Shown: positions 3,762 to 19,638 of the stretch, one piece after another
How the letters are laid out: every line of letters begins with the position of its first letter
How positions within the stretch are numbered: position 1 is the first letter of the stretch
Made by a program: the position numbers and the translations under genes
Virus record (IMG/VR): IMGVR_UViG_3300022748_000181
Location: 1-59,688 of that record
Direction: 5' to 3' (one strand)
DNA from: a virus
DNA: 59,688 nucleotides
Notes under the pieces: generated by a model
Databases searched by the model: none
The model's input: the letters and a program-made list of their open reading frames with translations, nothing else
Told to the model about the DNA's origin: nothing

Positions 3762-4185
3762 TGCCTGTGTATAAAATAGTTTTAATGATCATGTTGCTCC
3801 AATAATCGGCATCTTGCGTGGTTACACGAATATCCGCCCACTCGGGTGCAACAAACATCTTGTTAGTATCATCGTATCTACTAGAATCAATTGTGTCAAC
3901 AAATATTATCCAGTGTGGCTCAAAGTTTGTACGCATTTCAGGCAATGGTGCAACAAAGTCAGCAATACAGTAATCGCATTCCAATATTGTTGACAAAGAA
4001 TGCATACGCTTGCTTTGTCTAATTCTTCCTTCTAGACTAAAATCCCAATCGTCGTACTCCCTGCGTACTTCATCTGCATTTAAGTGCACAACTTTTTTGT
4101 CCGCGACTATTAACTTGTCTCGCAATGTGTTTGCCAGTGTAGTCTTTCCGGCGCCCGGTAGTCCCATTATGAGAATGCGTTGCAT
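3751..4185 (-). CDS. Adenylylsulfate-kinase-like P-loop kinase
   Basis: 144 aa, short for an APS kinase. The P-loop GLPGAGKTT is at about residues 8-16, followed by LNADEVRREYDDWDFS and RIRQSKRM, which parallel the GDxVR...DLGFS...R-x-x-x-x-RR region of CysC-type kinases that position adenylylsulfate. The C-terminal half is shorter and less typical, so the true acceptor may be another nucleotide or sugar. Its ATG overlaps the carbamoyltransferase stop (TAATG) and its 3' end overlaps the DUF2061 gene, so the three are translationally linked. A role in activating a modifying group for the glycan is inferred from this context only. Confidence 0.65.
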   Translation of the reverse strand: MQRILIMGLPGAGKTTLANTLRDKLIVADKKVVHLNADEVRREYDDWDFSLEGRIRQSKRMHSLSTILECDYCIADFVAPLPEMRTNFEPHWIIFVDTIDSSRYDDTNKMFVAPEWADIRVTTQDADYWSNMIIKTILYTGNGD

Positions 4186-5669: not shown

Positions 5670-6279
5670 TAATATGTTCTGCTATTCTTTGATGACCTAT
5701 TTCTAACGGGTGGCCTCCCGGTCCCAACGGACAATTTCCTTGCCAATCTAACATTCCAAGATTTGGCCAGTCTATATAAAATTTATCATTAACTTGATCG
5801 GTTAGATATTTTAATTTAGGCATGTACTCGTTGTAGTAATCTTGATTTAAATCGGCTTGTATGCCAAATGTACTAACAAATAGATATGGTTGCTTAATTG
5901 CTTCTAAGTGACTTTGTAACATTACTACCGTTCTTATCCACTTTTCGTAATTGTAAAACCTCTCACTGTGATTTGCATAGTATTCTAGTACCCACGGTAA
6001 CTGCGTAACTAAATCGTGATTAACACAGATATCTATTATGCGATCATTATACGGTACTTCAAACCTATCCGGATTAGTCCATGCAAATATTATCAGGTCG
6101 TACTGATTGGGCAACTCGTTAAATAGCAGGCGTATGTTCCTGTCATTACTTGCGCCACTTTTGGCCAAGTTGGTTAGTGTCCAATTGTTCGTTCTAGCCA
6201 ACAAATAGGGCCATGCATTATCAACACGAGACAATTCTTCACCATAGGTAAAACTACACCCTAGTGTCAGTACTTTCAT
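5635..6279 (-). CDS. SGNH-hydrolase-like protein (copy 1, 214 aa)
   Basis: 214 aa. Block I is GCSFTYGEEL (residues 7-16; Ser in the usual GDS position, with Cys replacing Asp). A GASNDRN segment (about 42-48) corresponds to the oxyanion/Asn region, and GPGGHPLEIGH near the C-terminus supplies the block V His. The canonical DxxH Asp is absent (Pro at that position), so a Ser-His dyad rather than a triad is expected. SGNH proteins are esterases or O-acyl transfer/deacylation enzymes; in this island a role in adding or removing acyl groups on glycans is plausible but unproven. Closely related to the next gene upstream (217 aa). Overlaps both neighbours. Confidence 0.7.
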   Translation of the reverse strand: MKVLTLGCSFTYGEELSRVDNAWPYLLARTNNWTLTNLAKSGASNDRNIRLLFNELPNQYDLIIFAWTNPDRFEVPYNDRIIDICVNHDLVTQLPWVLEYYANHSERFYNYEKWIRTVVMLQSHLEAIKQPYLFVSTFGIQADLNQDYYNEYMPKLKYLTDQVNDKFYIDWPNLGMLDWQGNCPLGPGGHPLEIGHQRIAEHINEHIRNISGLS

Positions 6280-6907
6280 TTTGAATATGATTAAAGATTT
6301 TGTTTGCCACTGCTACATGCCCTTCTTCTAGAAAGTGCCCATTAGGTCCTTTTGGCATGCCGTGGGTCCATATACCGGATCCACTATAGGGCCATCCCAC
6401 AAAGTCGGTTGAATCTATGTGTTTAGCCAACTGTGCGTTTTTGTCTAGGTATAACTTGTGCCAATCTTCTGAGCTACAGGCGTTAAACATGATGCATCTA
6501 ACTTGATTTGCTTTACAAAAACTCTGCACTAGAATTATTTGCCTTAACCATTTTGTGTAATAGTAGCCCGGGACGTCATACGCAGTCATGTACTTGATTA
6601 AGTTTATGCGATGATCATTGCAACTTTGCATTCGTCTATGTTCGCGGCCGGCCCACAGATCAGTGATACCAATATCATCTGCAAACTCTTGTCTGGCAGG
6701 GTCGGTCCATCCAATTACAACCAACTCTGCATCTCCGCTTAGTACAGAATCCATTGTACGTTTTACCATGCGATAGTTACCGGTTGCAGGTTTGCCTAAA
6801 TTAACAACAGGCCTGTCAAGCAGGTTGCCTAACAGTATCGGCCAAGCTGAATTTGTGTCCGGCAATTCTTCGCCAAAAGTAAAACTATCACCAATACAGT
6901 ATATCAT
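6254..6907 (-). CDS. SGNH-hydrolase-like protein (copy 2, 217 aa)
   Basis: 217 aa. GDSFTFGEEL (residues 6-15) is a canonical block I, followed by NLGKPATGNYRM as the Gly/Asn region. The C-terminal GPNGHFLEEGH provides the His, but the Asp three residues before it is Pro. Clear paralogue of the 214-aa protein, sharing the AW-P-LL-(A/G) helix after block I and a WTDPAR/WTNPDR motif. Its ATG overlaps the TGA of the 33-aa microprotein gene (ATGA), indicating coupled translation. The substrate is unknown; hydrolase or acyl transfer on glycan substituents is inferred from family and neighbours. Confidence 0.72.
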   Translation of the reverse strand: MIYCIGDSFTFGEELPDTNSAWPILLGNLLDRPVVNLGKPATGNYRMVKRTMDSVLSGDAELVVIGWTDPARQEFADDIGITDLWAGREHRRMQSCNDHRINLIKYMTAYDVPGYYYTKWLRQIILVQSFCKANQVRCIMFNACSSEDWHKLYLDKNAQLAKHIDSTDFVGWPYSGSGIWTHGMPKGPNGHFLEEGHVAVANKIFNHIQNESTDTRV

Positions 6908-7005
6908 TTGTAGATAAACGGATCTCTCTTACGTAACTCTTTGAGCTTTTTACGATAACGAATTTCTAGACGAATCCTGTTATATAGATTTTTTAACCAT
7001 TTCAT
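6904..7005 (-). CDS. 33-aa basic microprotein ending in RKRDPFIYK
   Basis: A 34-codon ORF read leftwards from the ATG at 7003-7005. It begins MKWLKNLYNRIRLEIRY, continues with a Lys/Arg-rich helix and ends RKRDPFIYK. A strong Shine-Dalgarno, AGGAG, lies 8 nt before the ATG inside the preceding SGNH gene, and the stop overlaps the next gene's ATG (ATGA). An amphipathic N-terminus followed by a basic stretch suggests membrane-surface or nucleic-acid association. From memory, similar tiny proteins with a RDPFIYK-like end occur in other aquatic T4-like phages. Function unknown. The 26-bp overlap with the preceding gene in another frame, plus the good ribosome site, argues it is real. Confidence 0.65.
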   Translation of the reverse strand: MKWLKNLYNRIRLEIRYRKKLKELRKRDPFIYK

Positions 7006-7753
7006 TGAATTTCTCCTGCATTAGGTTGGCAGCATCGCTGTGTGCTAGTTCCAGAGGATGTGTAGTTCCTATAGGGTATTTATTTTCCTTTGCCCATTGA
7101 TAAAAACCTCTTGGGTCGCAAGTTTCATTTGGCTTTGTGCCTGCAGGAAACCAAAACCATTTATTCATATCAATCTGCATAGTCAAACTGTTTATCACAC
7201 TGTCACCTTGATCGACGGTATGATTGTATAACAGGCTATTATCTGCACACGTAAACATGTAAGGAATGTTGTTTACCTTAAGATAATTTTGGAGGTAAAC
7301 AATTTCCTTAAGACTTGAATACACTTCCCAATATTCCGTAGAACCCACGTGCGTGAAAAACGTTTTTGCGAAATCCACAACACCAGTCTTTTTCGCTGTT
7401 CTAATGGTTTCCAACTGGGTATCCAGTATAGCTTTATTTTTAGTGACAAACTCTCGTTCGATATCTGTAACATCGTCTTTTATAGTCCATGCGTTAATAC
7501 TGTACCACGGACTTTTGCGCTGCCGTGTATCGTATGCAAACCTAAACTCGTAACGACCAGGGAATGTCCAGCTGACAATTGCCCCAGACACCCCACCTTG
7601 CTCACAACGTTCGATTGTGGTACGTGCAATGGCGTCATTGCTATAGCCAGGCCAAGCAACACATTCATCTGCACCCAGCAATGCTGTAAAAGTATTGGCA
7701 GGACTTGCTAGTTCACTACCGTAGACAAAACTGTCACCTGCTGCTATGATCAT
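6980..7753 (-). CDS. SGNH-hydrolase-like protein (copy 3, 257 aa)
   Basis: 257 aa, longer than the two copies downstream. Block I GDSFVYGSEL (residues 6-15) opens the protein, followed by a PGYSNDAIART region with the conserved Asn and a VSWTFPGRYEFR strand matching the WT-x-P-x-R motif of the other copies. The C-terminal GTTHPLELAH holds the His; the DxxH Asp is Gly here. An extra segment in the middle (about residues 85-135) is not present in the shorter paralogues. It overlaps the upstream 361-aa gene by 20 bp and the downstream microprotein gene by 26 bp. Esterase or acyltransferase activity on a glycan is an inference. Confidence 0.7.
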   Translation of the reverse strand: MIIAAGDSFVYGSELASPANTFTALLGADECVAWPGYSNDAIARTTIERCEQGGVSGAIVSWTFPGRYEFRFAYDTRQRKSPWYSINAWTIKDDVTDIEREFVTKNKAILDTQLETIRTAKKTGVVDFAKTFFTHVGSTEYWEVYSSLKEIVYLQNYLKVNNIPYMFTCADNSLLYNHTVDQGDSVINSLTMQIDMNKWFWFPAGTKPNETCDPRGFYQWAKENKYPIGTTHPLELAHSDAANLMQEKFNEMVKKSI

Positions 7754-8819
7754 ACCCTGGCTTTAATCTTTCTATTTGTCGGATGTAGTAGTCTCGGTCG
7801 GTCCAAGTGTAGGGATATACGGAGCGTAGTATACGCCCCTGCCCATCATCTGTAGTGATCCCCTGTATGTCGAGGTACCTCGATAGAACTGGCCAAACGT
7901 CATCGTAGTTGGTTGTTCCAAAAGACGCCAATAAATCAACCTGACCAACAGGGTGGTACCCATAGTTATATTGCGGGTCGTTGACGTTGAATCCGTTCCT
8001 GCCCAGCCATTCTCGGAATCCTGCCATTTCAGTTGTGTGCCATGGATGAGGGCCATTGAAGCATACATCCTGCGCCCATTCGATGTCAAACTCGCCGCTA
8101 TAGTAGCGTAGATGAGTAATAGCATCACACACACTCTGGTCCACGTCGACGCCTTTTTCGTCTCGATATACTTCATAAAGAGTCTTGCCAATCTGCGTCC
8201 AATGTAGGTATACTTCCCCGAATTTCCTATCGTATCTAGATTCTTCAAATGTAGTTCTATAATCTGTTGGGAATTCATATCGGGGTGCGTTTAAAAATGT
8301 TGTAATTTGACTGGGCCGGACCCATTCAGGTTGCGTTGCCTTTTTGCGTTGACTCAACATCAAGCTCTCTGCCTCATGACAAAGATTGTTTAATTGCCTA
8401 ATAGCAAACTTTGTAGTATAGTCTGCTCTTTTGTAATAGTCACTAAGCCCATCGACTGTGCCTTGCAGGATCTCAAAATGATTATGCAACTTATTCATTA
8501 AATCCTGGTTAGGGTCTAATGTTATTGGATCACGCAAGGTTGTGTGCGTGTACAATTCTTCAATGTGATAGTCGTCAAAGAAACTGTTAATCTCATTTAC
8601 TGCCCAAAACAATTCTTGACAAATAAATCTTAAATCGCGTTGACTATCAGGGAATCCCAAAAAGCAAAAGTTCTTTTCAAGATATAGGTTACGCTGTACA
8701 ATTTCCTGTAGAGCACTAAACCAACGTTGCCCCATTGGAGAGTCGTTGACATCAATAAAGTAATTGATTGTGTCTGTTTTGTCTAAGGGGTTTTGTAATG
8801 TTACTGTTACTTTACTCAT
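7734..8819 (-). CDS. Unknown conserved-type protein, 361 aa
   Basis: 361 aa, soluble, with no signal peptide or membrane segment. No family motif is recognised. It is rich in aromatic residues and in His/Asp/Glu, with notable segments FFDDYHIEELYTH (about 80-92), WAQDVCFNGPHPWH (about 255-268) and YGYHPVGQVDLL (about 290-301). The acidic/His clusters could bind metal, which is only a suggestion. It begins within the end of the 69-aa gene (8-bp overlap) and runs into the SGNH gene, so it belongs to the same operon as the radical-SAM enzymes and hydrolases and may act on the same product. Confidence 0.6.
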   Translation of the reverse strand: MSKVTVTLQNPLDKTDTINYFIDVNDSPMGQRWFSALQEIVQRNLYLEKNFCFLGFPDSQRDLRFICQELFWAVNEINSFFDDYHIEELYTHTTLRDPITLDPNQDLMNKLHNHFEILQGTVDGLSDYYKRADYTTKFAIRQLNNLCHEAESLMLSQRKKATQPEWVRPSQITTFLNAPRYEFPTDYRTTFEESRYDRKFGEVYLHWTQIGKTLYEVYRDEKGVDVDQSVCDAITHLRYYSGEFDIEWAQDVCFNGPHPWHTTEMAGFREWLGRNGFNVNDPQYNYGYHPVGQVDLLASFGTTNYDDVWPVLSRYLDIQGITTDDGQGRILRSVYPYTWTDRDYYIRQIERLKPGYDHSSR

Positions 8820-9021
8820 ATTTTAACCGAAACATAATTTCTTCTTGTTCGTCCTCAAACTCCAATTGTGGTCCCCAACTCATCTTAGACGGGATAAATG
8901 CCTCATGCACTATGTAGTTCCCCGGATATTCCTGCTGAAGCAATTTGGCTACTCGCTCGAACCCGATAGGATTTTTTGCATGAGTGTGATATAGTCTGTC
9001 TAAGCGTTTACGATATCCCAA
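8812..9021 (-). CDS. Small protein, 69 aa, between radical-SAM and 361-aa genes
   Basis: 69 aa using a TTG start at 9021, the only plausible start, since the next Met is at residue 47. The start lies inside the last codons of the radical-SAM gene that stops at 9008. The N-terminal third is basic and helical (YRKRLDRLYHTH), the middle has NPIGFERVAKLLQQEYPGN, and the C-terminus is acidic then ends RLKYE. No cysteines. No family recognised. Its position directly after a radical-SAM gene makes it a candidate partner or recognition protein, but nothing in the sequence proves that. Confidence 0.5.
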   Translation of the reverse strand: MGYRKRLDRLYHTHAKNPIGFERVAKLLQQEYPGNYIVHEAFIPSKMSWGPQLEFEDEQEEIMFRLKYE

Positions 9022-10312
9022 TTGAGTCCCACCATTCTAACACTTGCGGACGTTTAGCAAGTATCTCACGCATTGTAATTGATTGTGTACGTATTTGTTC
9101 TAATTTTAACACACGCTGTTTGCCTTTAGCAACTGCTGCTTGATATTCATTTGGCCACTGTTCAGCAAACGTGGGTCTAGTTTTTAGCTGGACTAAGATA
9201 TCCCTCAAGGCGCCGCCAGAGCCTTTTAACTGGTCGGTTATCTCGTCTACCCACGGATGTAAAATCTCTCTAGGTAGTGCAAGCGGTGACATAACTATGT
9301 CCGGACTAAAACTAAAAATTACTTTCGCCAAAACTTGTACGGAGAGGGCTGCGGACAATCTGTCAATGCATTCAACCTCAAACATTCCTGGCAAGGTAAG
9401 GGTGAAATCGATTCGCATCTGTCTAGGATGAGTTGAATGCGATACTCCTTCAGAGAAGTTCTTAAGCCAACTATCGTAGTCGAGGCCTGTTCTAATGTAT
9501 TCTCCAATCGCGCCTGTTCCGTCGAGCGATGCACATATCTGCCAGTCGCGTAACTTGCTAAGGATGTCGCGATAAAGATTAACCCCGCGATAGTCCACTC
9601 TTGATAGGTTAGTGTTATACCTTGCATAAACATTTTTTCCGTCCCCTAGTTCTATTATGCGTTGCATATAGCGCCAGTGTTGTTCATACATAAGAGGTTC
9701 GCCGCCAACCCAGTAGACCTCTTCAACACGGTGCTCTTCTACTGCTTGACTAAACTCTGCTTCGACCTCATGGTCTTGAAATCTCTCAATCTGCTTCTTG
9801 ACTTCAGGTTGCATCCAAATATTCTTTGGATTGGACCAATCTATCATGTTATGTTGTTTTTGCTCAGTCTCCCAACTACTACTCAACATGTCACCACAAG
9901 TACGACATTTGAAATTACATAGATTGGTAAACCTATAATCCCAACTAACAGGCTTCATTGTAGTGAATCCTGTATCGTCTGTACTTTCTAATACTTGTAT
10001 GTACTTATGGCCAAACAGGCTGTCAAAATAGCTGCGGTAAACACTGGTATTCAACAGTTTATCATTACATACCTCGCACTCTGGGAGGGTTTCCCCACAT
10101 AGCATACGTAGGCGCACGGAACGCATGTGCTCCCCATTCCAGTGTTCGTCCAGCGTGATAGGTATATACTTGCCACTGCCAGCAGCGGTGTCGATATACT
10201 GTTGAAAGTTTTGTGCAGGCTCTCTGCTGGCACAGCACATCCTGCGTTCTGTTTGTGGGCTTAGATACGTATGCACCCAGGGCGCAAGGCAAAGTGTTTG
10301 TGGTTTACTCAT
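9008..10312 (-). CDS. Radical SAM protein with N-terminal SPASM/twitch-like cysteines (copy 5)
   Basis: 434 aa from the ATG at 10312, which overlaps the preceding stop as ATGAGTAA (a GTG 7 codons earlier is also open). The N-terminus has C8-x12-T-x4-CC (26-27) and a CEVC pair near residue 78. The radical-SAM core then starts with CNFKCRTC near 132-139, followed by a VGGEPL motif near 203. The CxxxCxxC cysteines bind the 4Fe-4S cluster that cleaves S-adenosylmethionine; the N-terminal cysteines look like half of a SPASM/twitch auxiliary-cluster site, placed before rather than after the core. Substrate unknown. In this copy the SPASM Gly is Thr. The next gene downstream is a 69-aa protein; the one upstream an 82-aa protein. 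Confidence 0.85.
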   Translation of the reverse strand: MSKPQTLCLAPWVHTYLSPQTERRMCCASREPAQNFQQYIDTAAGSGKYIPITLDEHWNGEHMRSVRLRMLCGETLPECEVCNDKLLNTSVYRSYFDSLFGHKYIQVLESTDDTGFTTMKPVSWDYRFTNLCNFKCRTCGDMLSSSWETEQKQHNMIDWSNPKNIWMQPEVKKQIERFQDHEVEAEFSQAVEEHRVEEVYWVGGEPLMYEQHWRYMQRIIELGDGKNVYARYNTNLSRVDYRGVNLYRDILSKLRDWQICASLDGTGAIGEYIRTGLDYDSWLKNFSEGVSHSTHPRQMRIDFTLTLPGMFEVECIDRLSAALSVQVLAKVIFSFSPDIVMSPLALPREILHPWVDEITDQLKGSGGALRDILVQLKTRPTFAEQWPNEYQAAVAKGKQRVLKLEQIRTQSITMREILAKRPQVLEWWDSIGIS

Positions 10313-10553
10313 ATAAAAATCTACTATTACCACGCAGTAGCATAAAAGACATCAGGTCTTCTCTCACCTTATAACGTGCATGATACCTCAATCCAATTAC
10401 TTCCCATTGTGCTGGATTTTGTTTTTCAATCCAGTCCCCGACTGAGTATCGACACTCGATGCAATACCAGACTCCTGCATCGTTTGTTTGCACAGTAACA
10501 AACGAATCGTCGACAGTAAGATATCGATATGCTTGACCGCTGCCAGATTCCAT
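10305..10553 (-). CDS. Small protein, 82 aa, between two radical-SAM genes
   Basis: 82 aa with an ATG that overlaps the upstream radical-SAM stop (TAATG) and a stop inside the next radical-SAM start. The sequence looks like a small beta-rich domain: YLTVDDSFVTVQTNDAG, then WYCIECRYSVGDW with a CxxC-like pair (Cys-Ile-Glu-Cys), and a Gln/Trp segment ending in an Arg-rich helix. No recognised family. Being flanked by two radical-SAM genes with coupled translation, it could be a substrate, chaperone or recognition element, but an unrelated function is equally possible. Confidence 0.55.
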   Translation of the reverse strand: MESGSGQAYRYLTVDDSFVTVQTNDAGVWYCIECRYSVGDWIEKQNPAQWEVIGLRYHARYKVREDLMSFMLLRGNSRFLYE

Positions 10554-11770
10554 TAGTACCCCATGGCTTTTGCTATTTCTGGATGAGTATCCATGAAGGT
10601 TTGTTTACGGTATTCGTCAGTGCGTTTCATTTTTTCTAAGAACTCAGTACCGTCGCTACCCGGTCCGTTTTCAATGAAGTTAACTACATTGTTAATTTCT
10701 TGTTGGTACTTATTGGTAGTCCAAAATGTTGTCTTTAGTTTGTTTAATACCAGCTCGCGGGCAGCAGGAGTCATATACTGTATGCTCATATGATCTGGGC
10801 TATGTAGCATGTTGAAGTAGATACTACCAAATTCCTTAGTGTCTGCCCAAGCTAGCAGTTCATCTAAGTAGTAGACGTTCTGTATGTTGATGGTAAAGCA
10901 AAGTTGTGTAGTAATGTTGTGGGTGTCTACACCCTGTGCCCAATGAATGCCATCAATAATTAAGTTTGCTTCGTCCCACTTTGCGCCGTAACGTTCATAT
11001 TCAAAACGTGCACCCACGTTATCAACGCTAAACGCAATATCCACACGCCCAAACTCATTCCAGACCCAAGACTTATCCATGCTCAATACATCAATACTTG
11101 CGTTTGTATTGTAGTGAATATCAATGTGCTTGCTATCCCCTGTCTGCACAGCATGGCGCAACAAGTCCCAGTGTTCTTCAATAAGCCAAGGTTCGCCACC
11201 TGTGAACTCAAAATATTTAATGTTAGGCAGCAGAGCTTTCAAGTTTTCCCAAAAGTCCGGACTTTCTTCAGGCCATTTACCTTGCTTGAGCCATTGATAT
11301 GCAATGTGACTTTTCTTATCCACTGTTGGAGGTAGGTATGCCATTTCTTCTGTGGCCCACTTGCTACTGCTCCAACTACCACAGATTCTGCATTTGAGAT
11401 TGCAGATGTTGCCAAGTTTGAGATCAACGAACCACAATTGGTCAGGGTCATCATTGTCCCAGTCAACCTTTGCGTATAACTCCTTGAGTCGAACTTGACT
11501 GTGTATTCTCTTGCTATCCCGTCCTGATGCCTCTTCCACCCAACATCTAGAACAAGTACTTGGCTGCTCTCCCCTACGAAACTGTTGTCGCAAAGATTGC
11601 ATGTAATTGCTGTGATAAATTTCTTCAAGGGTAGTGGTACGCAACGAATACGGTACGCCGTGGTCATCTTTAATTTCCTCTTGCGCTAAACAACATGGGC
11701 GTGATGTACCCATTGGGCTTGCTTCTATGCTGATCCATGGCAGCATACAAATAGTACTTGGTAGTGTCAT
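10553..11770 (-). CDS. Radical SAM protein with N-terminal SPASM/twitch-like cysteines (copy 4)
   Basis: 405 aa. The N-terminal motif is C8-x12-G21-x4-CC (26-27) in the context CMLPWISIEASPMG, with CSRCW near residue 72. The radical-SAM cluster motif CNLKCRIC is near 121-128 and TGGEPW near 190. Closest in layout to the 440-aa and 434-aa copies (same CNxxCRxCG core, same E-H-W/Y helix after GGEP). Probable SAM-dependent radical enzyme with one or more auxiliary Fe-S clusters; substrate unknown. ATGA overlap with the 440-aa gene upstream and TAATG overlap with the 82-aa gene downstream. Confidence 0.87.
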   Translation of the reverse strand: MTLPSTICMLPWISIEASPMGTSRPCCLAQEEIKDDHGVPYSLRTTTLEEIYHSNYMQSLRQQFRRGEQPSTCSRCWVEEASGRDSKRIHSQVRLKELYAKVDWDNDDPDQLWFVDLKLGNICNLKCRICGSWSSSKWATEEMAYLPPTVDKKSHIAYQWLKQGKWPEESPDFWENLKALLPNIKYFEFTGGEPWLIEEHWDLLRHAVQTGDSKHIDIHYNTNASIDVLSMDKSWVWNEFGRVDIAFSVDNVGARFEYERYGAKWDEANLIIDGIHWAQGVDTHNITTQLCFTINIQNVYYLDELLAWADTKEFGSIYFNMLHSPDHMSIQYMTPAARELVLNKLKTTFWTTNKYQQEINNVVNFIENGPGSDGTEFLEKMKRTDEYRKQTFMDTHPEIAKAMGY

Positions 11771-13089
11771 TTTTCTAATGCTCGCTTGATTTCCGGGAAA
11801 ACGTCCCAGAATTTTTCATTTCTAATTTTATCAAGTTTAGCTGTTTCTTCGATAAAACGTGTCCATTCGTTGCTGTTATCAATTGCATTTACAAAACTCA
11901 GCATGCTCTTAAATCCACTGGTTGCACGATTTAATGCATCCTGCGGTTCCAACCATTCAATGTGTTTGTTATATGCAGGAGTAATGTAATCGTCCTTAAA
12001 CCACTGTGGGAAAATATCCGCACGATACCACTTGCTGTCCTGGCAAATATTAATATTAAAATCTTTCGGATGAATAAGACCTAAGTCGCTCCATTCTCTA
12101 TGAAAATCTAATACATGCAACACATTCATTGAGCTAATAGTTGCACTAACATAAAAGTCCACGTGGGGCACTTCGTCGATCATGCGTTGACGATTTTCTA
12201 ATACCTGTTTCCAATCAGTGCCTTTACGGATTAATTCTGCCCGGTCACCGCTGGCGTCAAGACTTGCACCAACACTGACATTCTTAAAGTGTTTCCAGTA
12301 CTCAAATACATGCTTATCTTTAAAATGCAATTCGCTAAAGTTTGTGTTGTACTGTAAACGTATATCTGTCTTACCATGCTCGATTAGTTTTTCAAGCAGA
12401 TAGTAATGTTCTTTCATAATCAGGGGCTCGCCGCCAGCAAAGTATACCTGTTCCAGATGAGGAATGTGTTCTTCCATTTGCTGGATCATTCCGTCTTCGT
12501 CTCCTGTTGTGTATTCCACTCTATCCATAGGACGACCCAAAACATCAGGGCGTGTATTATATAACTTAATATGATCATTGTACCAGTTACTGCTGAAAAT
12601 AGGGCCACAGGAGCGACAGCGGAAATTACAGAGATTGCTGAAGCGCACATCCCAATACCTAATTTTGAACTCAGGATGCGTTCCATCGTTGTGTGTTGCA
12701 TCAATTTCTCCTATATGGTGTCCGTAGTTACGGTTAGCATCATGCCTCATACTAAATGCTCCGTGTTCTTCTCGTTCGTAACATTTATTGCATTCTTTGC
12801 AGGGCTTGTCCTGTAACATATTGGTACGCATGGTTTTGTACGCATCTTGATTCCACACTTCTGCCATGGTGTTTTTACGCAGGTCGCCTACAGGATGCCA
12901 GTAGTCTGCTAAACAGCAAGGATACGCACGACCATCAGGAAAGGCATGCATATGAACCCAAGGCAACATACAAAAAGATTTACTTTCAGTTAGTCTAGTC
13001 CATTGTTCTTCTGTTAATTTGTCACGATCGGTAAAGTACGGTGCACGAGCATTGTAGTTATACCCTTTGTTGTAAAAGTCTTTGCTCAT
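11767..13089 (-). CDS. Radical SAM protein with N-terminal SPASM/twitch-like cysteines (copy 3)
   Basis: 440 aa. An N-terminal extension of about 38 residues precedes C40-x12-G53-x4-CC (58-59) in FCMLPWVHMHAFPDGRAYP. A CKECNKC triplet follows near 96-102, one cysteine more than in the sister proteins. The core motif CNFRCRSC is near 153-160 and AGGEPL near 218. This is the copy that best shows the SPASM-type C-x(9-15)-G-x4-C signature ahead of the radical-SAM domain. Function presumed SAM-radical modification of an unknown peptide, sugar or lipid. ATGA overlaps on both sides couple it to the 449-aa and 405-aa genes. Confidence 0.88.
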   Translation of the reverse strand: MSKDFYNKGYNYNARAPYFTDRDKLTEEQWTRLTESKSFCMLPWVHMHAFPDGRAYPCCLADYWHPVGDLRKNTMAEVWNQDAYKTMRTNMLQDKPCKECNKCYEREEHGAFSMRHDANRNYGHHIGEIDATHNDGTHPEFKIRYWDVRFSNLCNFRCRSCGPIFSSNWYNDHIKLYNTRPDVLGRPMDRVEYTTGDEDGMIQQMEEHIPHLEQVYFAGGEPLIMKEHYYLLEKLIEHGKTDIRLQYNTNFSELHFKDKHVFEYWKHFKNVSVGASLDASGDRAELIRKGTDWKQVLENRQRMIDEVPHVDFYVSATISSMNVLHVLDFHREWSDLGLIHPKDFNINICQDSKWYRADIFPQWFKDDYITPAYNKHIEWLEPQDALNRATSGFKSMLSFVNAIDNSNEWTRFIEETAKLDKIRNEKFWDVFPEIKRALEK

Positions 13090-14435
13090 AAGTTGTTGTA
13101 CCAGTCTGCTAGTTCAGGAAATGTTGTGCAGAAGTCTTTGCCCCTGCGTTGATCGTATTGTGTGAAAAACTGTTTGAAATCGTTTTGCAATACTGATAGT
13201 TCTGCTGCACCTTCATGCGGCTGACTTACAATGTCTACATAGGCTATTAATCTTGCCAGTTGATTCTTTTCATACTCGTGCATTAAGCCAGAGTCTGCAT
13301 AGCTCTTATAGAACTTGCCTAAATTGGCTGCATACTGGTCACGGATACTTTCTGGTAGGATAGTAAGTGATTGAAAACTTGGAAAGCGCAAGATATTTAG
13401 CGAGAAATTGATAGCATCCTTGCCATACTCAAGTTTCCAGTTCATTACCATTTCAAGGAAGCTGTCTAAGCTGCTTAGGCACAATGCATTGACTGTACAC
13501 ATCACATGCAGTCCACGGAACTTGCCACTGTCTAGTAGTCGCTCTACGTTGTTAGCCCAGTCGTCAAAGTTAATACCATCTCGAATATACTCTGCCTGCA
13601 AGCCAATTGATTCGTTACTGGTGTACAAGTCAACTTCTACACCGTCTATGCTGTCTAACAAACGATCGATATCTACTTCTGTGCCTAGATTGCTGTTAAT
13701 GGCTAGTCGTGTCTTGCTCTTGCCTTTGTTGATCTTAAACCAATCGATCAGCTTCCAGGTCTCGCCTGACATTAGTGGTTCCCCACCTGTTATTCGAAGT
13801 TCTTTAAGGGTTCGGTGTAAGTCACTTTCCCACCAGGCGTGAAACGCTTCCACATAAGGATTAACCTGACCGAATTTATACAGTTGACTATTATCATGAC
13901 TGTGAGTAAAATGGTTCCGGCCATCACTAACCAGCCCTGTGTATGCCCCATTGCGTTTAATGTCGTTAACCCATGTAGTACTAAAAGCTGGGTTACAGTA
14001 GCTACAAGCAAACTGGCAAGTACGGTCAAAAGCAATTTCCAGGGTTTGTAAGTTGACGTCGTTGGACGCTGGCAAACGAAATGCATCATCTAAATCCTTA
14101 TCTTCATATATAACTGTTTTGTAAACGCGGTCACTGATACTGTCTTTGCCTATATCTTCGATTTTCCAACAGTATTCGCACCCACTTGGGCGTTCGCCCT
14201 TTTGCATCTGTTCACGTTCCATTTTCTTTTTAGAAGTGTTGTGCAGTGCTTTAGGATTTGTTTTAAGTTCTTCTACATCAATGGCATGGGGCAATGGATG
14301 ATGGCAGCTAGTTGTTTGACCACTGCCTAACCATATGGTAGCGTTGTACCACTTGGCGGCACAGAATGATTCTGACTTAATGTCAATCACTCTACGTTTG
14401 TATTCTATGTCTGATTCGTTGGTTAGTTTAGGCAT
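13086..14435 (-). CDS. Radical SAM protein, His-variant subgroup (copy 2)
   Basis: 449 aa. N-terminal motif C25-x13-G39-x4-C44 followed by HH instead of a second Cys, then PLPHAID; CEYCW near 85. The core motif CQFACSYC is near 139-146 and TGGEPL near 220. Together with the 460-aa copy it forms a subgroup distinguished by CxxxCSYC, a C(H/Y)HPxxHxID motif and a KKxxRxxM helix between the two N-terminal cysteine sites. The His residues might ligate an auxiliary cluster or metal. Substrate unknown. Starts 3 bp after the SGNH gene stop. Confidence 0.87.
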   Translation of the reverse strand: MPKLTNESDIEYKRRVIDIKSESFCAAKWYNATIWLGSGQTTSCHHPLPHAIDVEELKTNPKALHNTSKKKMEREQMQKGERPSGCEYCWKIEDIGKDSISDRVYKTVIYEDKDLDDAFRLPASNDVNLQTLEIAFDRTCQFACSYCNPAFSTTWVNDIKRNGAYTGLVSDGRNHFTHSHDNSQLYKFGQVNPYVEAFHAWWESDLHRTLKELRITGGEPLMSGETWKLIDWFKINKGKSKTRLAINSNLGTEVDIDRLLDSIDGVEVDLYTSNESIGLQAEYIRDGINFDDWANNVERLLDSGKFRGLHVMCTVNALCLSSLDSFLEMVMNWKLEYGKDAINFSLNILRFPSFQSLTILPESIRDQYAANLGKFYKSYADSGLMHEYEKNQLARLIAYVDIVSQPHEGAAELSVLQNDFKQFFTQYDQRRGKDFCTTFPELADWYNNL

Positions 14436-14438
14436 CTG

Positions 14439-15158
14439 TTATTTTAACATGTTTAGTATTCTGTTTGCAAGTTTCTCAAATTCGGTTCTCCTAGGATGCA
14501 TACCGTCTGGAAAATTAACATGATCTTTAGTTAAGTCTTGTAACGCTTCGCCGCGCTCAATTTCTGTTAAAACCTGTTCTATACCATTGGGTTTTAAATA
14601 GTCGTATACTGCATCAACCCCGTCATACTTTAAAAAATTATGAGGTACTGAATCAAGTGCTAACAATTCTTTAAGCCAACTATAGATCTTTATTTGAGCG
14701 AAAGCAAAGTTATCAATTGTGTGATCTAATTTACCTACTCCACCGATTACAATAAATGGAATATCGAATCTTTCAAATATTTCTCTTTGGGCGTATTGAT
14801 AATTACACAGATTTACATACTGCATAGCATCAACAAAGCTCTTGCCTTGTATGTTTGGATACTGTTGCTGCCCTGCCTCTACTTGATTAAGAACAAATTG
14901 CACTATGTCACGCACCGGCTCAGTATGGAACCAAATTATGTAATCATAGTCCGAATTCTCTGTCATTAGTTTGTGGCAAGCGTATCTTAATTGCCCAAAG
15001 TTTCCTTCACCGCCGTAGGACAAGTTATTTACAGTATGCCCAAACTTTTTCAAGTAAAAATCTAAACCGGTGTTTGGTATCGACACACAACCTCTCGTGT
15101 CGTTTGTTAGCCGCCATTCTCCGACTCCCCAACTATCTCCAATGATTAAAAATTTCAT
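14439..15158 (-). CDS. SGNH-hydrolase-like protein (copy 4, 239 aa)
   Basis: 239 aa. GDSWGVGEW (residues 7-15) is block I; NLSYGGEGNFGQLR supplies the Gly and Asn blocks; a C-terminal NFPDGMHPRR gives a full canonical DxxH. Of the four SGNH-like genes in this island this is the only one retaining the complete Ser/Asp/His set, so it is the best candidate for an active esterase or acyltransferase. It lies between two radical-SAM genes of the His-variant subgroup, overlapping the upstream one by ATGA, which suggests all three act in one pathway. Confidence 0.72.
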   Translation of the reverse strand: MKFLIIGDSWGVGEWRLTNDTRGCVSIPNTGLDFYLKKFGHTVNNLSYGGEGNFGQLRYACHKLMTENSDYDYIIWFHTEPVRDIVQFVLNQVEAGQQQYPNIQGKSFVDAMQYVNLCNYQYAQREIFERFDIPFIVIGGVGKLDHTIDNFAFAQIKIYSWLKELLALDSVPHNFLKYDGVDAVYDYLKPNGIEQVLTEIERGEALQDLTKDHVNFPDGMHPRRTEFEKLANRILNMLK

Positions 15159-16537
15159 TGCTGTGCGTAATACTTACACTCATCCCAAAACTCTTTCATT
15201 GTTGGGAAAGTCTTTAAAAAGTCAGTGCCGCGTCTTGTATCATGATGATTAAAGAAACGGTAAAAGTCAGCACGTTGGGCATTGATATAAACTGTATCTA
15301 ATTTGCTGCCTTCTTTCATCCAATCTATGTCTCGGCGCATACGCTGTATCTCATAGTCTTTGAAACCTTGGAATGGCCTGTCTGTGGTTTCTCTATTTGT
15401 CTCCATCCAGTCTGCTACACGTTCTAATACACCAACGTATACCGAAGGTAGTATTTGCAAACTCTGCCAACTCGGAGTACGCAATAAAGGAGTATCAAAC
15501 CAAACTCGTTGGTAAGTCTTGCTATGATGTTTTCGTAAAGCCAGAATCCATTCAAGCTGTTGTTGTAGTCCCAAAATGCCGAGATTGTTCATAGTAATAA
15601 TGAATGTAAGACTGTTGCGGTACGGAATTTCTTCTAAGTACCTATTCACGTTCCACACAACACGTTCAAATGACATGCCATGTCTAATGTATTCGGCTTG
15701 CTTCCGATTCCCTGAGTCCAAACTAACATACTGCATGAAATGCTCAATCTGTGTGTTGCACAAACGTTTTACATAATCAAGATACTGATCCATCAGCTTA
15801 GGCTCTACGCTGAAGTTGCTGGTTACATTCAAATGCAGGTCGGGTTTGGGCATAGCCAACACATAGTCAAATACCTTGTAAGTATTTTTGTCCATTAGTG
15901 GCTCGCCGCCTGTCATGCGGAAGTGTTTAAGTTTAGGATATAATGCGGGCCACCATTCCCAAAAAGCATCAACGTATGGATTATCCTCACGATGGGGGAT
16001 AGGTCGTCGAGCACCCGTAAAATGAGCGGGGTCATTATGGGGAATACTAGTGGGAAATGCTCCGTGTCTAGCAACTTCGTCAGCCCAACTGCTGCTAAAC
16101 TGAGGGCTGCAATAACTACACTTAAGGTTACAAGCGTGATTAAAATTGACTTCCACATAACTTGGAATCGTATCTTCTTGTCCTGTGCTATTTCTAATTT
16201 CGTCATAGTGTTCTGCTGCCCACGGCTCTCCGCTTCTGTAATGTCTATCACTTAGTTGATTGTGTGCTTCGATGTTCCAGCAATAGCTGCACTCGCTAGG
16301 CTTTTCATCCTTCAACATGATCACACGCTGTTGCTTCTTGTGTTCGGTGTTGTGCAATGCACTGGGATTGACCTTTACTGCATCTGCATCAATTTGGTGC
16401 AAGGGAGGATGATAGCAACTGTTGTTTAGCCCAGTCGGAAGATGCAGGCTTACTTGCTTCCATTTAGCCAGGCAAAGTGCAGGACCCAAGTTGTCCTTCA
16501 TAAATTCTGCACTGGCCATGAAATTGCTTTTACTCAC
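15155..16537 (-). CDS. Radical SAM protein, His-variant subgroup (copy 1)
   Basis: 460 aa from a GTG at 16537, supported by an AAGGA 10 nt upstream and by the same G-AGTAA start/stop overlap style used elsewhere in the operon; an ATG six codons in is the alternative. N-terminal motif C22-x13-G36-x4-C41, then YHPPLHQID; CSYCW near 82. The core motif CNLKCSYC is near 134-141 and TGGEPL near 211. Paralogous to the 449-aa protein throughout, including an ALHNT(E/S)xKK helix. First radical-SAM gene of the operon. Substrate unknown. Confidence 0.87.
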   Translation of the reverse strand: MSKSNFMASAEFMKDNLGPALCLAKWKQVSLHLPTGLNNSCYHPPLHQIDADAVKVNPSALHNTEHKKQQRVIMLKDEKPSECSYCWNIEAHNQLSDRHYRSGEPWAAEHYDEIRNSTGQEDTIPSYVEVNFNHACNLKCSYCSPQFSSSWADEVARHGAFPTSIPHNDPAHFTGARRPIPHREDNPYVDAFWEWWPALYPKLKHFRMTGGEPLMDKNTYKVFDYVLAMPKPDLHLNVTSNFSVEPKLMDQYLDYVKRLCNTQIEHFMQYVSLDSGNRKQAEYIRHGMSFERVVWNVNRYLEEIPYRNSLTFIITMNNLGILGLQQQLEWILALRKHHSKTYQRVWFDTPLLRTPSWQSLQILPSVYVGVLERVADWMETNRETTDRPFQGFKDYEIQRMRRDIDWMKEGSKLDTVYINAQRADFYRFFNHHDTRRGTDFLKTFPTMKEFWDECKYYAQQ

Positions 16538-17432
16538 GAACCATTATTCCTTGATTTTTAAATTGACTCATGTAATGATGTTTAAAGAATCTACTTTGTT
16601 CTGCGTTTAAAGAAGTAATAGGCAATCCCAATCTGGTCTTTAAGGCATGATCAACTTCGAACGTAAAGTCTTCTCCCATGTACTCTGCTGTGTTATACTT
16701 TTCCCAGAGTTCTTCAAGTTTTGCAAAATTTTGGACTTCTGTGTAATCCCAATCGGTTAACATGGTAAGGTACGTTCCTAGTCTGGCTCCACGGATAGCA
16801 TATGTTCCGTGATCCACGTCTTGCCCAACTGACTGCCAGATGCATAAGTTATCGTAGTTCCTAGAGACAATCCTTGAGGTGAAGTTTAAAAGGCTGGGCC
16901 TAGCTCCTCGGTCCAAACACATCTTAACACCTTCACGAAACCCTGCACGCCAGGCCTGGTAGGCACTTCCGTTTGGATATGTTGTTGAACATACATCCGC
17001 CATTGCCCAATACTTCGGGTGAAAGCAAAATTCCACAAGCGTCTCATCGGACCCGTCCGAGGCTTCGTGAGTCCGCATGCTATAAACAAAATCTTTAGTC
17101 CAACTCGAAATGCCGCCGTTTCCATACTGAAGTCCATTTATATTGTTACGTGCTCTCCATCGAAAAACGCAATCATGATTATTCGCATCCAGAGTAAGCT
17201 GCTGATTAAAAAATGCAGCATCGGGGATGTTATCTCCGTCAATGAGTATAAATCTTTCCGTATCTGAGGCATCAGCAGCGGCTTTGTGAGCTGCGTCACT
17301 ACCCAGTACTCCATCAACCCTTTTCGCCCAAGGAACAATATTCTGAATAGTGACCCAGAACTCTTCTTTTTTTGGTTCGTCATATGTTAAGTAGATGCAG
17401 TCTAAATCTGCAACATCAATTATTTCGGTCAT
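16530..17432 (-). CDS. GT-A-like glycosyltransferase with intact DGD motif
   Basis: 300 aa from the ATG at 17432 (a TTG 14 codons upstream is open but would overlap the previous gene more). Near residues 57-65 FILIDGDNIP has the hydrophobic-DxD pattern of metal-dependent GT-A enzymes, preceded by LDCIYLTYDEP as the first strand and AAADASDTERF as the helix before DxD. The later blocks NGLQYGNGG and AWRAGFREGVK match the C-terminal unit of the 750-aa protein at 121-2370. Probable nucleotide-sugar transferase, unknown donor. It overlaps the downstream radical-SAM gene by 8 bp and the upstream small gene by 17 bp. Confidence 0.65.
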   Translation of the reverse strand: MTEIIDVADLDCIYLTYDEPKKEEFWVTIQNIVPWAKRVDGVLGSDAAHKAAADASDTERFILIDGDNIPDAAFFNQQLTLDANNHDCVFRWRARNNINGLQYGNGGISSWTKDFVYSMRTHEASDGSDETLVEFCFHPKYWAMADVCSTTYPNGSAYQAWRAGFREGVKMCLDRGARPSLLNFTSRIVSRNYDNLCIWQSVGQDVDHGTYAIRGARLGTYLTMLTDWDYTEVQNFAKLEELWEKYNTAEYMGEDFTFEVDHALKTRLGLPITSLNAEQSRFFKHHYMSQFKNQGIMVRE

Positions 17433-17784
17433 AGTGCTCAACGTCTGTATATTCTTCGTCTTGATTAAGAGCAATAGCAGGGTGGTTCTTAACTACTGGT
17501 TGTCCTGTAGTTGATCTTTTAAGTCGTGACTTTAACGGTGCAGAAGGATCTAACTGTGTTAACTTGCCCTTAACCACACGCATGAGCTGTGTGTTTGCTT
17601 TGTTAAATATGTCAGGATGATCTAATACAACAAAATTGTCACCAATTGGGTGATCGTACTCCCACATACCTATTATAGTACCATCTTCATTATAGTACAA
17701 CCGATACTGTTTAAATGGTATAGGCTTTAGTCGCTCTTGCTCGGCAACCATTTCTAATGCTTTAAGAAATTCTGGATCTAGCAT
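17416..17784 (-). CDS. Small unknown protein, 122 aa
   Basis: 122 aa from the ATG at 17784. The N-terminus is helical (LDPEFLKALEMVAEQERLK), then comes a beta-rich stretch YRLYYNEDGTIIGMWEYDHP, then VVLDHPDIFNKAN, and a basic/polar C-terminal tail. No catalytic motif is recognised. The Y-x-x-Y-NEDG-x-I segment resembles small beta-domain proteins found in phage accessory islands, which is only an impression. It overlaps the GT-like genes on both sides (23 bp upstream, 17 bp downstream), so it is probably a partner in the same transcript. Confidence 0.55.
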   Translation of the reverse strand: MLDPEFLKALEMVAEQERLKPIPFKQYRLYYNEDGTIIGMWEYDHPIGDNFVVLDHPDIFNKANTQLMRVVKGKLTQLDPSAPLKSRLKRSTTGQPVVKNHPAIALNQDEEYTDVEHYDRNN

Positions 17785-18586
17785 AGTAATCAATCATCTC
17801 GTCTGTTACAAAATCTTTTACGTAATAATGAAATGGGTGGTATTGGTTAATGTTGTTGACTCGTATCATTCCGTGGTCAAACACAGTTGTATAAACATCA
17901 CTAAATGTTTGAGTTTCTGCATACCCATTTACTGCTGGCTTCATGTGCACAAAATTAATGTAGTCAATTGGCAGTGTGCACAATTCGTTGCCAATAACTT
18001 TTGCAGCAATGGCATACACTACATCTGTCGTAGGCGTTTGGTCACATTTAACTAACTCTTGTTGCACAGAATCCCATTGTTCAAAGATTTGTCTGGCAGT
18101 AAAGAAAAAGTTTCTAGCAGTATTACTAAATCTAAAGTACATCAACCCGTTATAGACATCGGGTAAACTGTTGTTGTCAAATATTGATCTATATTCGCGG
18201 CAACTGCTTAACTTCTGCTCATAATTTCTGCACCCAGTACTTAATACAACATCACGTAATCTAAAAGTGTCCCACCAATGGTCAATACTGCGTGTAAACA
18301 ATAGGTCACTTTCTAACTTGATTGTTTCTTTAAACGGTGTTAACCAAAATGCCATGGCCTCTGCATCAAATGGGCCATTACTGTCATGCACAATAATATA
18401 ATCAAATACTGCACGATGTAGATCTGTAATCAATGCGTTGGTATTACTGTCAACTACTACTGCGTACCGATTGATCTTTTGTGTAGCTTTTACGTTTAGA
18501 GCCTGAACATATGCAAGGTGCAAATAATCAATGTCTGTGTTTTTCGCAAAGGTCAAATAACCTTGCTGTTCTTTATGCTGTGACAT
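17762..18586 (-). CDS. Glycosyltransferase-like (GT-A/GT8-like) protein, 274 aa
   Basis: 274 aa. It begins with a strand YLTFAKNTDIDYLHLA, typical of GT-A proteins that open with a nucleotide-binding beta strand, and has IKLESDLLFTRSIDHWW (about residues 90-107), where E-x-D occupies the DxD site. NGLMYFRFSN then resembles the N-x-G-(V/L)-x-x-F strand of GT8-like enzymes. Paralogue of the 265-aa protein upstream, sharing NNSLPxVYxGLMYFR / NNSLPYVWATVFAFR and the C-terminal region. Donor and acceptor unknown. It overlaps the upstream gene by 14 bp. Confidence 0.55.
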   Translation of the reverse strand: MSQHKEQQGYLTFAKNTDIDYLHLAYVQALNVKATQKINRYAVVVDSNTNALITDLHRAVFDYIIVHDSNGPFDAEAMAFWLTPFKETIKLESDLLFTRSIDHWWDTFRLRDVVLSTGCRNYEQKLSSCREYRSIFDNNSLPDVYNGLMYFRFSNTARNFFFTARQIFEQWDSVQQELVKCDQTPTTDVVYAIAAKVIGNELCTLPIDYINFVHMKPAVNGYAETQTFSDVYTTVFDHGMIRVNNINQYHPFHYYVKDFVTDEMIDYYARSRIS

Positions 18587-19370
18587 TTTCTATAAACTTT
18601 TGAAAGTCTTCGCTTTGTAGATACCTCTTGCTCATAATATGCAAGTTTGTTCTAGGAACCACGTATGATTTAAAGTCGTCTTTGATCACTAGAAAATTGT
18701 CTTTTATTGTAATGCTGTTAATAGGCGTATCAACCGTCAACATAGTGCCAGGAATCCCTATGTCAGATACAGTATATCCATTTAAAATTATGTCTGCCAT
18801 GGAAAATGCGTAATCATTTCTAAATGAGCCACCTTGTACATTAAACAATGCTTTGTAGTATTCGTAATTGTGTTGTATTCGTTTAACTAGGTCAAAATAT
18901 TGTTTTGCTCTGTCTGTTTTTCGGAATGCAAACACTGTGGCCCATACATACGGTAAACTGTTATTGCCCATGTACTCATTGTATTCTTGAGTCAATGAGT
19001 TGCTGTGTCTGAGCAAAAGGTAATCCCACGACTGCTTAAATATCTTTAACAGATTGGTATCTTGCACAATGTAGTCAACATCAATGACCAATGTTTCATC
19101 GTAGGGACTTAGGTCGTATGCTGCACTTCTGCCAATGTTCTTCCACTGCACAAAGCTATCAGTGTCAATGCTATATCTAGTATTGTTAAACTCTGCTGCA
19201 TAGTTGTCGGAGATAACAGTATATGGTAATCCTAATATGCGGCTTGCAACAGAAAGAGTTTTTTCTGCAATCGCAACATAATCAACTTGATTAGTGTTAT
19301 AGGCAAAGGCAACTATGCCTTTAGATTTTTCTAATTTTTTTGAGTTCTGCATATTGTTGGTGCCACTCAT
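18573..19370 (-). CDS. Glycosyltransferase-like (GT-A) protein with DVD motif, 265 aa
   Basis: 265 aa from the ATG at 19370; a second ATG six codons in (19352) is equally possible and neither has a strong ribosome site. GIVAFAYNTNQVDYVAIA opens the fold, LPYTVISDN follows, and ETLVIDVDYIVQD near residues 92-104 is a classic hydrophobic-DxD site for metal and nucleotide sugar. NNSLPYVWATVFAFRK follows near 150. Probable GT-A transferase; donor unknown. It overlaps the upstream 105-aa gene and the paralogous downstream transferase, forming a two-transferase pair at the head of the operon. Confidence 0.6.
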   Translation of the reverse strand: MSGTNNMQNSKKLEKSKGIVAFAYNTNQVDYVAIAEKTLSVASRILGLPYTVISDNYAAEFNNTRYSIDTDSFVQWKNIGRSAAYDLSPYDETLVIDVDYIVQDTNLLKIFKQSWDYLLLRHSNSLTQEYNEYMGNNSLPYVWATVFAFRKTDRAKQYFDLVKRIQHNYEYYKALFNVQGGSFRNDYAFSMADIILNGYTVSDIGIPGTMLTVDTPINSITIKDNFLVIKDDFKSYVVPRTNLHIMSKRYLQSEDFQKFIENVTA

Positions 19371-19638
19371 TCATTACTCTATGATAGTGCTGCTGTGCAG
19401 TTACTAAGAACACTTGCCTATCTACTTCAATTGGATTTTGGTATGCATCTTCCAAATAGATAACATCGATTGGCATAGACTTAACAAACGCCAATAGTTC
19501 CGGCGTCACTTTAAATAGCCCACCGTTGTGTGCTATGTGTAAGTCTGTTTGGATTTTTTCCCGAAGGATTTTTTTGTTTGTTTGAAAGTCCGTGGCTAAA
19601 CGAATTTCGTTAATTAGATTAGTAACTTCTGAGCTCAT
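19321..19638 (-). CDS. Small conserved-type phage protein, 105 aa
   Basis: 105 aa, mostly helical and charged. The central block PIDVIYLEDAYQNPIEVDRQ is followed by a helix with YHRVMNEWHQQY and a basic end. No enzyme motif. From memory, similar small proteins occur in T4-like phages of aquatic bacteria, with no assigned function. It is the first gene of the long minus-strand modification operon and lies just downstream of a stem-loop that separates it from the tail genes. Its 3' end overlaps the first glycosyltransferase gene by 50 bp. Confidence 0.6.
   Translation of the reverse strand: MSSEVTNLINEIRLATDFQTNKKILREKIQTDLHIAHNGGLFKVTPELLAFVKSMPIDVIYLEDAYQNPIEVDRQVFLVTAQQHYHRVMNEWHQQYAELKKIRKI

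Follow-up and report, generated by a model that had tools for sequence, protein, structure and literature searches.

A conserved cassette of five diverged radical SAM enzymes with an N-terminal twitch-type domain adjoins the tail-fibre genes of an uncultured phage

We analysed a virus record of 59,688 bases (IMGVR_UViG_3300022748_000181; this whole stretch is called the window below) and found that it carries a cassette of five genes for radical S-adenosylmethionine (SAM) enzymes, here designated A to E. As had been read from the sequence in an initial annotation, all five open reading frames (ORFs) lie on the minus strand within positions 9008-16537 and encode twitch-type cysteines ahead of the CxxxCxxC core. 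Looking for co-conservation in other phages, we recovered the cassette, mostly in the same order, from about 100 loci of uncultured phages. Starting from the observed family membership, conserved ligand residues, ortholog groups and gene linkage, we tentatively propose, with somewhat less than even confidence, that A to E each carry out a different redox or rearrangement step on the sugars of a phage-built glycan, which would most likely be attached to a protein of the tail-fibre region.

Cysteine pattern and gene arrangement

The C-x12/13-(G/T)-x4-C element occupies residues 22-41 in A, 25-44 in B, 40-58 in C, 8-26 in D and 15-33 in E; a CxxC pair starts at residue 83, 86, 100, 73 and 86, respectively, and the CxxxCxxC core follows downstream of these twitch cysteines at residue 136, 140, 154, 123 and 139. 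The core motif is present in 5/5 proteins, as expected of the radical SAM superfamily. Shuffled N-termini (5000 per protein) reproduced the twitch pattern in 0 to 0.24% of cases, and its presence at matching places in all five proteins is far beyond chance. After the core, A to E hold one to three scattered cysteines and no CxxC, so that the canonical order of SPASM maturases is not found. The radical SAM gene at 50744 in the same window, initially cited as an example of that usual order, does show it (core at residue 16, C-x13-G-x4-C at 229-248), but its last pair is C-x3-C (residues 277 and 281) and not CxxC.

The seven cysteines (four of the twitch, three of the core) are invariant among A to E of the window and, apart from one gap, in 524 aligned rows (134 A, 123 B, 103 C, 61 D and 103 E, the five of the window included), which were drawn from 654 grouped proteins with the exclusion of members below 45% identity. 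The division into a Cys-Cys and a His subgroup was borne out and persists in these relatives: the GX4C cysteine is followed by another Cys in C, D and E, whereas A has C-Y-H and B has C-H-H, the His of A being retained in 130/134 rows and the His pair of B in 123/123. The His or Tyr-His had been described as a replacement of the second cysteine, which is true only of the residue that follows; the GX4C cysteine itself is never lost and the His type keeps all four twitch cysteines. Loss of an auxiliary ligand in the His type was thereby ruled out. Within the Cys pair of C, D and E, the distance from the first cysteine of the element points to the second member as the candidate ligand, whereas the GX4C spacing points to the first; C97 of C and C79 of E, two additional cysteines of the N-terminus, are not conserved in relatives. 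From A to E the gaps between adjacent genes are -4, +3, -4, -4, -1 and -29 bp, and this overlapping or near-touching arrangement fits a single transcript.

Family membership and predicted structure

A to E match the NCBIfam model NF033640 (N_Twi_rSAM) over nearly its full length with 277-403 bits (cut-off 170) and share with this family the order of twitch followed by core. Judged by sequence, the N-terminal placement of the twitch is thus already known as a named family, which also occurs in Bdellovibrionota contigs, and novelty of this arrangement is not supported. The name of this subfamily gives no function, and A to E constitute five distinct ortholog groups within it; we found no function for the family in the open-access literature (subscription journals lay mostly outside the coverage).

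That the N-terminal domain resembles SPASM/twitch domains is supported by matches to Pfam SPASM (PF13186, cut-off 21.5) at the N-terminus of C (residues 40-103, 50.1 bits) and D (residues 8-77, 28.6 bits), together with the absence of the usual C-terminal cysteine pattern; the N-terminus of E scores 13.6 bits, below the cut-off, and A and B give no match. Pfam PF04055 (cut-off 29.5) is exceeded by A (36.9), B (31.4) and C (41.2), whereas D (21.7) and E (28.1) stay below. The N-terminal domains are related to each other in the four pairs compared (probability 87-99). Against a profile of the C-terminal tail of 50744-family proteins, the N-terminal domain of C reached a probability of 65, that of D 26, B 14, A 7 and E 0.1, values that as sequence evidence neither prove nor deny a shift of the domain.

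In the structural model of A (mean pLDDT, predicted local distance difference test, 92.4), the stretch from C22 to C41 contains two strands (28-32 and 37-39), and C83 and C86 sit in a helix (81-91), a predicted secondary structure as expected of a twitch. With Foldseek, the barrel of A matched BlsE (top), viperin, anSME and AprD4; with VIA-align, A matched SkfB (Z 14.2), BlsE (13.6), SuiB (13.5) and DesII (13.5). The sugar-acting enzymes BlsE and DesII rank among the closest folds to this barrel, but they share only 13-15% sequence identity with A, and the match covers mainly the barrel and not the N-terminal domain. SkfB and SuiB, SPASM/twitch peptide maturases and top VIA-align matches, presumably carry a twitch-type cysteine pattern like that of A to E, but we take their auxiliary domain to follow the core. 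The viperin models of NCBIfam score far below their cut-offs.

Five ortholog groups in a conserved order

Scanning viral contigs yielded at least 600 matching stretches, and 566 of those listed encode relatives. From three scans (queries A-E, B and C) we obtained 198 viral loci, which collapsed to 150 by shared DNA; the viral scans kept the best 80 matches, and close relatives are consequently over-represented in the locus counts. ORFs of relatives were called mechanically, neighbours were labelled by BLAST clusters, and many loci end at a contig edge. Among the 151 loci, with the window included, 71 contain five radical SAM genes of the A-E kind, 45 fewer and 35 more. The exact order A-B-C-D-E in the locus's own orientation is found in 54 loci besides the window (in the window's numbering the cassette reads E-D-C-B-A, as it lies on the minus strand), and the protein best matching A is present in 148/150 other loci.

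Within the window, B to E are only 20-35% identical to A, whereas the best match in other loci has a median identity of 67% (A), 68% (B), 52% (C), 55% (D) and 73% (E). In a maximum-likelihood tree of 111 rows A to E each form one group; those of B, C, D and E are strongly supported, and that of A has a support of 13, with the bacterial locus L206 alongside. These separate, diverged ortholog groups indicate, on sequence grounds, that five distinct proteins have been retained rather than five recent copies; recent tandem amplification was ruled out, with the weak support of group A as a caveat. The multistep pathway initially suggested is plausible in view of the five diverged groups and their mostly conserved order; its reaction and substrate, as set out below, are what we infer. 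In the open-access literature (with the coverage given above) we recognised no description of this cassette.

Linkage to glycosyltransferase-like and tail-fibre genes

The genes around the cassette are listed in Table 1. Upstream counts refer to 109 loci with at least 7 kb before A, downstream counts to 104 loci with at least 9.9 kb after A. Upstream, genes resembling those of glycosyltransferases (GT) are the most constant partners: a GT8-like gene is found in 107 and a GT-A-like gene in 106 loci (within 7.5 kb), followed by the 19697 type (98), the 19321 type (97), the 17416 type (82) and a tail-fibre gene (79). Downstream we counted B in 94, C in 91, D in 96 and E in 93 loci, the 7734 type in 83, SGNH genes in 64, the carbamoyltransferase in 63 and the 2369 type in 57. 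The linkage is also visible from the other side. Searching with the GT-A gene, we found radical SAM genes in 76/80 loci (best 80 matches), the other four being short (5.4-12 kb). For 19697 we took the best 80 of 162 loci and counted the 54 with about 6 kb or more downstream, 26 shorter ones being set aside: radical SAM genes occur in 53/54 and the GT8 and GT-A genes together in 54/54. In the window there is overlap, or almost no spacing, between the genes of the cassette and those for tail fibres.

Table 1. Radical SAM genes of the cassette and neighbouring genes in the window
Feature	Position	Strand	Size or evidence
A: N-twitch radical SAM enzyme, His type	15155-16537	-	460 aa; NF033640 301.5 bits
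B: N-twitch radical SAM enzyme, His type	13086-14435	-	449 aa; NF033640 296.1 bits
C: N-twitch radical SAM enzyme, Cys-Cys type	11767-13089	-	440 aa; NF033640 403.1 bits
D: N-twitch radical SAM enzyme, Cys-Cys type	10553-11770	-	405 aa; NF033640 327.9 bits
E: N-twitch radical SAM enzyme, Cys-Cys type	9008-10333	-	441 aa from GTG start, 434 aa from inner ATG; NF033640 276.9 bits
GT-A-fold-like protein, DGDN motif	16530-17474	-	model pLDDT 90.5
Conserved 125-aa protein, function unassigned	17416-17793	-	cluster in 104/151 loci
Glycogenin/GT8-like glycosyltransferase	17762-18586	-	profile of 29 relatives against glycogenin chains, best E 1.2e-5
Second GT8-like protein	18573-19370	-	related to 17762-18586, profile-profile probability 99.6, E 5e-24
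Conserved 105-aa protein, function unassigned	19321-19638	-	cluster in 125/151 loci
Ser/Thr-rich (29.6%) tail-region protein, candidate acceptor	19697-20692	-	composition and linkage
Tail-fibre-like protein	20704-22521	-	Peptidase_G2 end, PF11962 17.8 bits, below cut-off 25
SGNH-like hydrolase between A and B	14439-15158	-	no Pfam match; cluster in 6/151 loci
361-aa protein downstream of E, function unassigned	7734-8819	-	no notable Protein Data Bank sequence match, best E 0.079
Three SGNH/GDSL-like proteins	5635-7753	-	weak matches for two of the three
Carbamoyltransferase	4185-5669	-	Pfam PF02543/PF16861, 131 and 152 bits
Putative GT-B-like protein	2369-3607	+	cluster in 95/151 loci; no Pfam match

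For several of these genes further evidence was obtained. The GT-A-like protein matches mostly glycosyltransferases and nucleotidyltransferases in structure, with modest scores (VIA-align Z 9.6, Foldseek E 3e-3); a sequence search of the Protein Data Bank (PDB) gave no useful match, and Pfam on 28 relatives returned a single weak GT2 match. The first GT8-like protein belongs to phrog_1903 (function unassigned in PHROG) and as a single protein has no Pfam match; for the second, no Pfam match was found in 29 members, and the best PDB hit has an E of 0.15. The Ser/Thr-rich protein has no match in GenBank phage records and no useful one in a PDB sequence search, while its homolog from locus L167 weakly matches Pseudomonas jumbo phages (E 0.006-0.1, 8 records), one of these proteins being annotated as a virion structural protein. 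The tail-fibre-like protein clusters with the PHROG tail-fibre protein at 26000-27604. We take the protein between A and B to be SGNH-like from its GDSW motif. Of the three proteins downstream, 6254-6907 matches GDSL with 21.8 bits (cut-off 32.9), 5635-6279 and 6254-6907 weakly match DUF6071, and 6980-7753 gave no match. The 2369 gene, presumably GT-B-like, is of a type with 87/174 members inside A-E arrays; in the window it lies on the opposite strand and outside the array.

Three further observations concern the same region. A small APS-kinase-like (adenosine 5'-phosphosulfate kinase) P-loop protein at 3751-4185 (40.3 bits), with relatives in 35 loci, overlaps the carbamoyltransferase gene by one base. 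A 754-aa protein at 121-2385 clusters with the GT-A-like protein, and an FDFxWxPxPW...FPSQ...DTF-like stretch seems, by eye, to be repeated in it. Between the tail-fibre and baseplate genes lies an ORF of 3,794 aa (28313-39697) with one FG-GAP repeat match.

Carrier phages and additional paralogs

The window record carries baseplate and SbcCD genes. Its baseplate wedge shares 33-36% identity with the counterparts in jumbo phages, GAP32 and CBB among them (the 20 records listed out of 78). The carrier is probably a giant (jumbo) phage. The wedge gene is also found, with 32-75% identity, in 28/30 large cassette-bearing records, which suggests that these loci belong largely to one jumbo-myophage clade. 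Among 50,697 GenBank phage records, C and D match Vibrio phages K566 and K567 and one marine fragment, A matches only K566 and K567, and B, the GT-A gene, 17762, 19321 and 19697 have no match (E was not among the queries). In the distant Vibrio phage K566 the radical SAM genes are interspersed with two genes that match Pfam GT8 (32.6 and 47.4 bits; cut-off 24.3). A second IMG/VR record of 55 kb (L324) encodes a 19697 protein 100% identical to that of the window, and perhaps represents the same phage in another sample.

The family is not confined to the cassette. All 30/30 large records exceed the NF033640 cut-off, and at E 0.001 each of them has between 6 and 21 matches; in four large relatives 16/21, 10/16, 8/12 and 11/13 matches lie above the cut-off. 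In four jumbo records (L300-L318) paralogs are scattered, alone or a few together, among the core genes of replication and packaging. A PF01521 Fe-S A-type carrier gene is present in 11/31 records; the window record has none. We also noted that the window's C-terminal-twitch-type radical SAM gene (50744-51595) lies between its SbcD and SbcC genes, that N-twitch genes occupy the SbcD-SbcC interval in two other jumbo phages, L300 and L309, and that radical SAM genes lie beside SbcC in L310.

Relatives in bacteria

A scan of genomes returned at least 17 confirmed loci; among those listed, 12 are labelled with groups that we take to belong to the phylum Bdellovibrionota, and one (L205) is a phage contig in a metagenome-assembled genome. 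Five genomes, four of them Bdellovibrionota-labelled and one from Beijerinckia, are all above the NF033640 cut-off. In the tree, bacterial rows stand next to A, to B and to C separately; L208 has relatives of each of the three in a stretch of about 10 kb. Taken together, this suggests, as far as sequences can tell, that the A, B and C lineages split before phages and bacteria parted, or were exchanged more than once.

On a 936-kb Bdellovibrionia contig a radical SAM cluster is accompanied by homologs of two genes of the window, the GT-A gene (27% identity, E 3e-23) and, weakly, the 2369 gene (28%). GT1 and carbamoyltransferase-like genes lie nearby in L211 and L215, and L323 has GT1 and GT2 genes near its N-twitch genes. 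The Bdellovibrionota contigs L209, L319 and L320 have many radical SAM genes in arrays, one of which also contains a weak B12-binding domain (29.7 bits, cut-off 32.1).

Proposed function and alternatives

Beyond what is observed, we infer the glycan as substrate, its acceptor, the order and timing of the steps and the role of the auxiliary cluster. The two GT8-like enzymes and the GT-A-fold enzyme would assemble the glycan, A to E would alter its sugars, and the carbamoyltransferase and the SGNH proteins would finish it. As is generally known of radical SAM enzymes, the core cluster would cleave SAM to a 5'-deoxyadenosyl radical, which would abstract hydrogen from the substrate; the auxiliary cluster at the N-terminus would accept or give the second electron. 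A virion protein is the likeliest acceptor because the cassette follows directly on the tail-fibre genes and would be expressed late, together with the virion; this run-on, and a protein with 29.6% Ser+Thr that moves in lock-step with the cassette, point above all to the product of 19697-20692. Glycan tailoring by A to E seems to us the most economical account. The linkage counts, the gene neighbourhoods in K566 and in some Bdellovibrionota contigs, the BlsE and DesII matches and the separate clades of A to E speak for it.

A close published system is the host recognition cluster of pelagimyophages, for which PMC7029224 describes GT8 genes, with radical SAM cassettes in some genomes, beside tail fibres. 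These are likewise T4-like aquatic phages with GT8 and radical SAM genes in the structural region, but their cluster is described as hypervariable (PMC7029224), whereas the cassette of the window is an ordered set of five enzymes conserved in order and sequence across many phage contigs. For TARA_ERS488813_N000010, a T4-like environmental viral genome, PMC5332604 reports an Fe-S carrier gene alongside 12 radical SAM genes; it resembles the 11/31 records above in combining many radical SAM genes with such a carrier in one phage. There the radical SAM genes are treated with Fe-S cluster metabolism (PMC5332604).

The main rival to a virion glycan is that the same sugar chemistry acts on the host's surface polysaccharide and blocks adsorption of other phages or re-adsorption, which we consider somewhat unlikely. 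A change of the host O-chain has been proposed for pelagimyophage glycosyltransferases (PMC7029224), GT8-like and carbamoyltransferase genes would suit the decoration of a polysaccharide, and some Bdellovibrionota relatives lie near GT1/GT2 genes; however, the cassette overlaps or nearly touches the tail-fibre genes and tracks a tail-region protein in 53/54 loci, and it is conserved where the pelagimyophage island is hypervariable. SPASM/twitch enzymes are best known as peptide maturases. They are treated as such in PMC11002830, and direct modification of protein, in the manner of the maturases of ribosomally synthesized and post-translationally modified peptides (RiPPs), could epimerise or cross-link residues in a tail-fibre protein or in the small proteins 19321-19638 and 17416-17793. 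SkfB as top VIA-align match of A and the presence of these two conserved small proteins in the module (ORFs of at least 50 aa were examined) speak for such a role, but the small ORF between D and E (10305-10553) has no relative above 50 bits in 150 other loci and the most constant partners are glycosyltransferase-like, so that we regard it as distinctly unlikely.

Still further from our expectations is a pathway that yields a small, diffusible compound resembling a sugar or nucleoside, which might, for example, inhibit competitors or the defences of the host. BlsE and viperin (Foldseek) and DesII (VIA-align) are among the closest folds of A, and 14 loci contain a gene that presumably resembles an amidinotransferase (Pfam gives no family); the fixed position beside the tail-fibre genes and the low viperin scores make this highly improbable. 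Radical SAM and glycosyltransferase genes also take part in the hypermodification of phage DNA bases, and scattered N-twitch paralogs do adjoin replication genes, but the cassette sits with the tail fibres and no nucleotide-metabolism gene was recognised within it; of all accounts considered, we give this one the least credence.

Several findings also weigh against the glycan on a tail-region protein. The best VIA-align row of A is a peptide maturase, tied with BlsE, SuiB and DesII within less than 1 Z unit, so that the predicted fold of A does not tell a sugar from a peptide substrate. For the proteins of the window themselves the GT8 and GT-A assignments are weak, and the GT-A gene immediately adjoins A in only 58/143 loci. 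As the loci come mostly from one phage clade, judged by the baseplate wedge, the linkage counts are not independent events. Outside the cassette, the neighbours in 19 paralog regions include, among the proteins compared, SbcC/SbcD, UvsW, UvsX, DnaB-like, terminase and chaperonin genes; the module's GT8 family occurs in none of these regions, the 2369 type in two and SGNH genes in three. Paralogs in such company indicate that the N-twitch family is not tied to glycans as such, and argue against a role of the whole family in glycans only. Finally, several Bdellovibrionota genes have no glycan neighbour by the comparisons made.

Implications

The five fixed members, their constant glycosyltransferase-like partners and an adjacent candidate acceptor make up a compact system for finding the substrate of these enzymes. 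The module is common in uncultured virus contigs, but the queries tested are almost missing from records of sequenced phages, and it has thus been hidden by the isolates. In its widest form, namely that a five-step radical SAM pathway builds an unusual modified sugar on the phage's tail-fibre-region protein with enzymes shared with predatory Bdellovibrionota (relatives of A, B and C), the proposal is unlikely to hold in every part. If it did, serial radical chemistry would make a virion glycan, and receptor binding or virion stability would depend on that glycan. Glycosylation of virions has a precedent in mycobacteriophages, as cited in PMC12619734. Should the product of the cassette sit on tail fibres, radical chemistry would join the ways in which phages decorate their virions.

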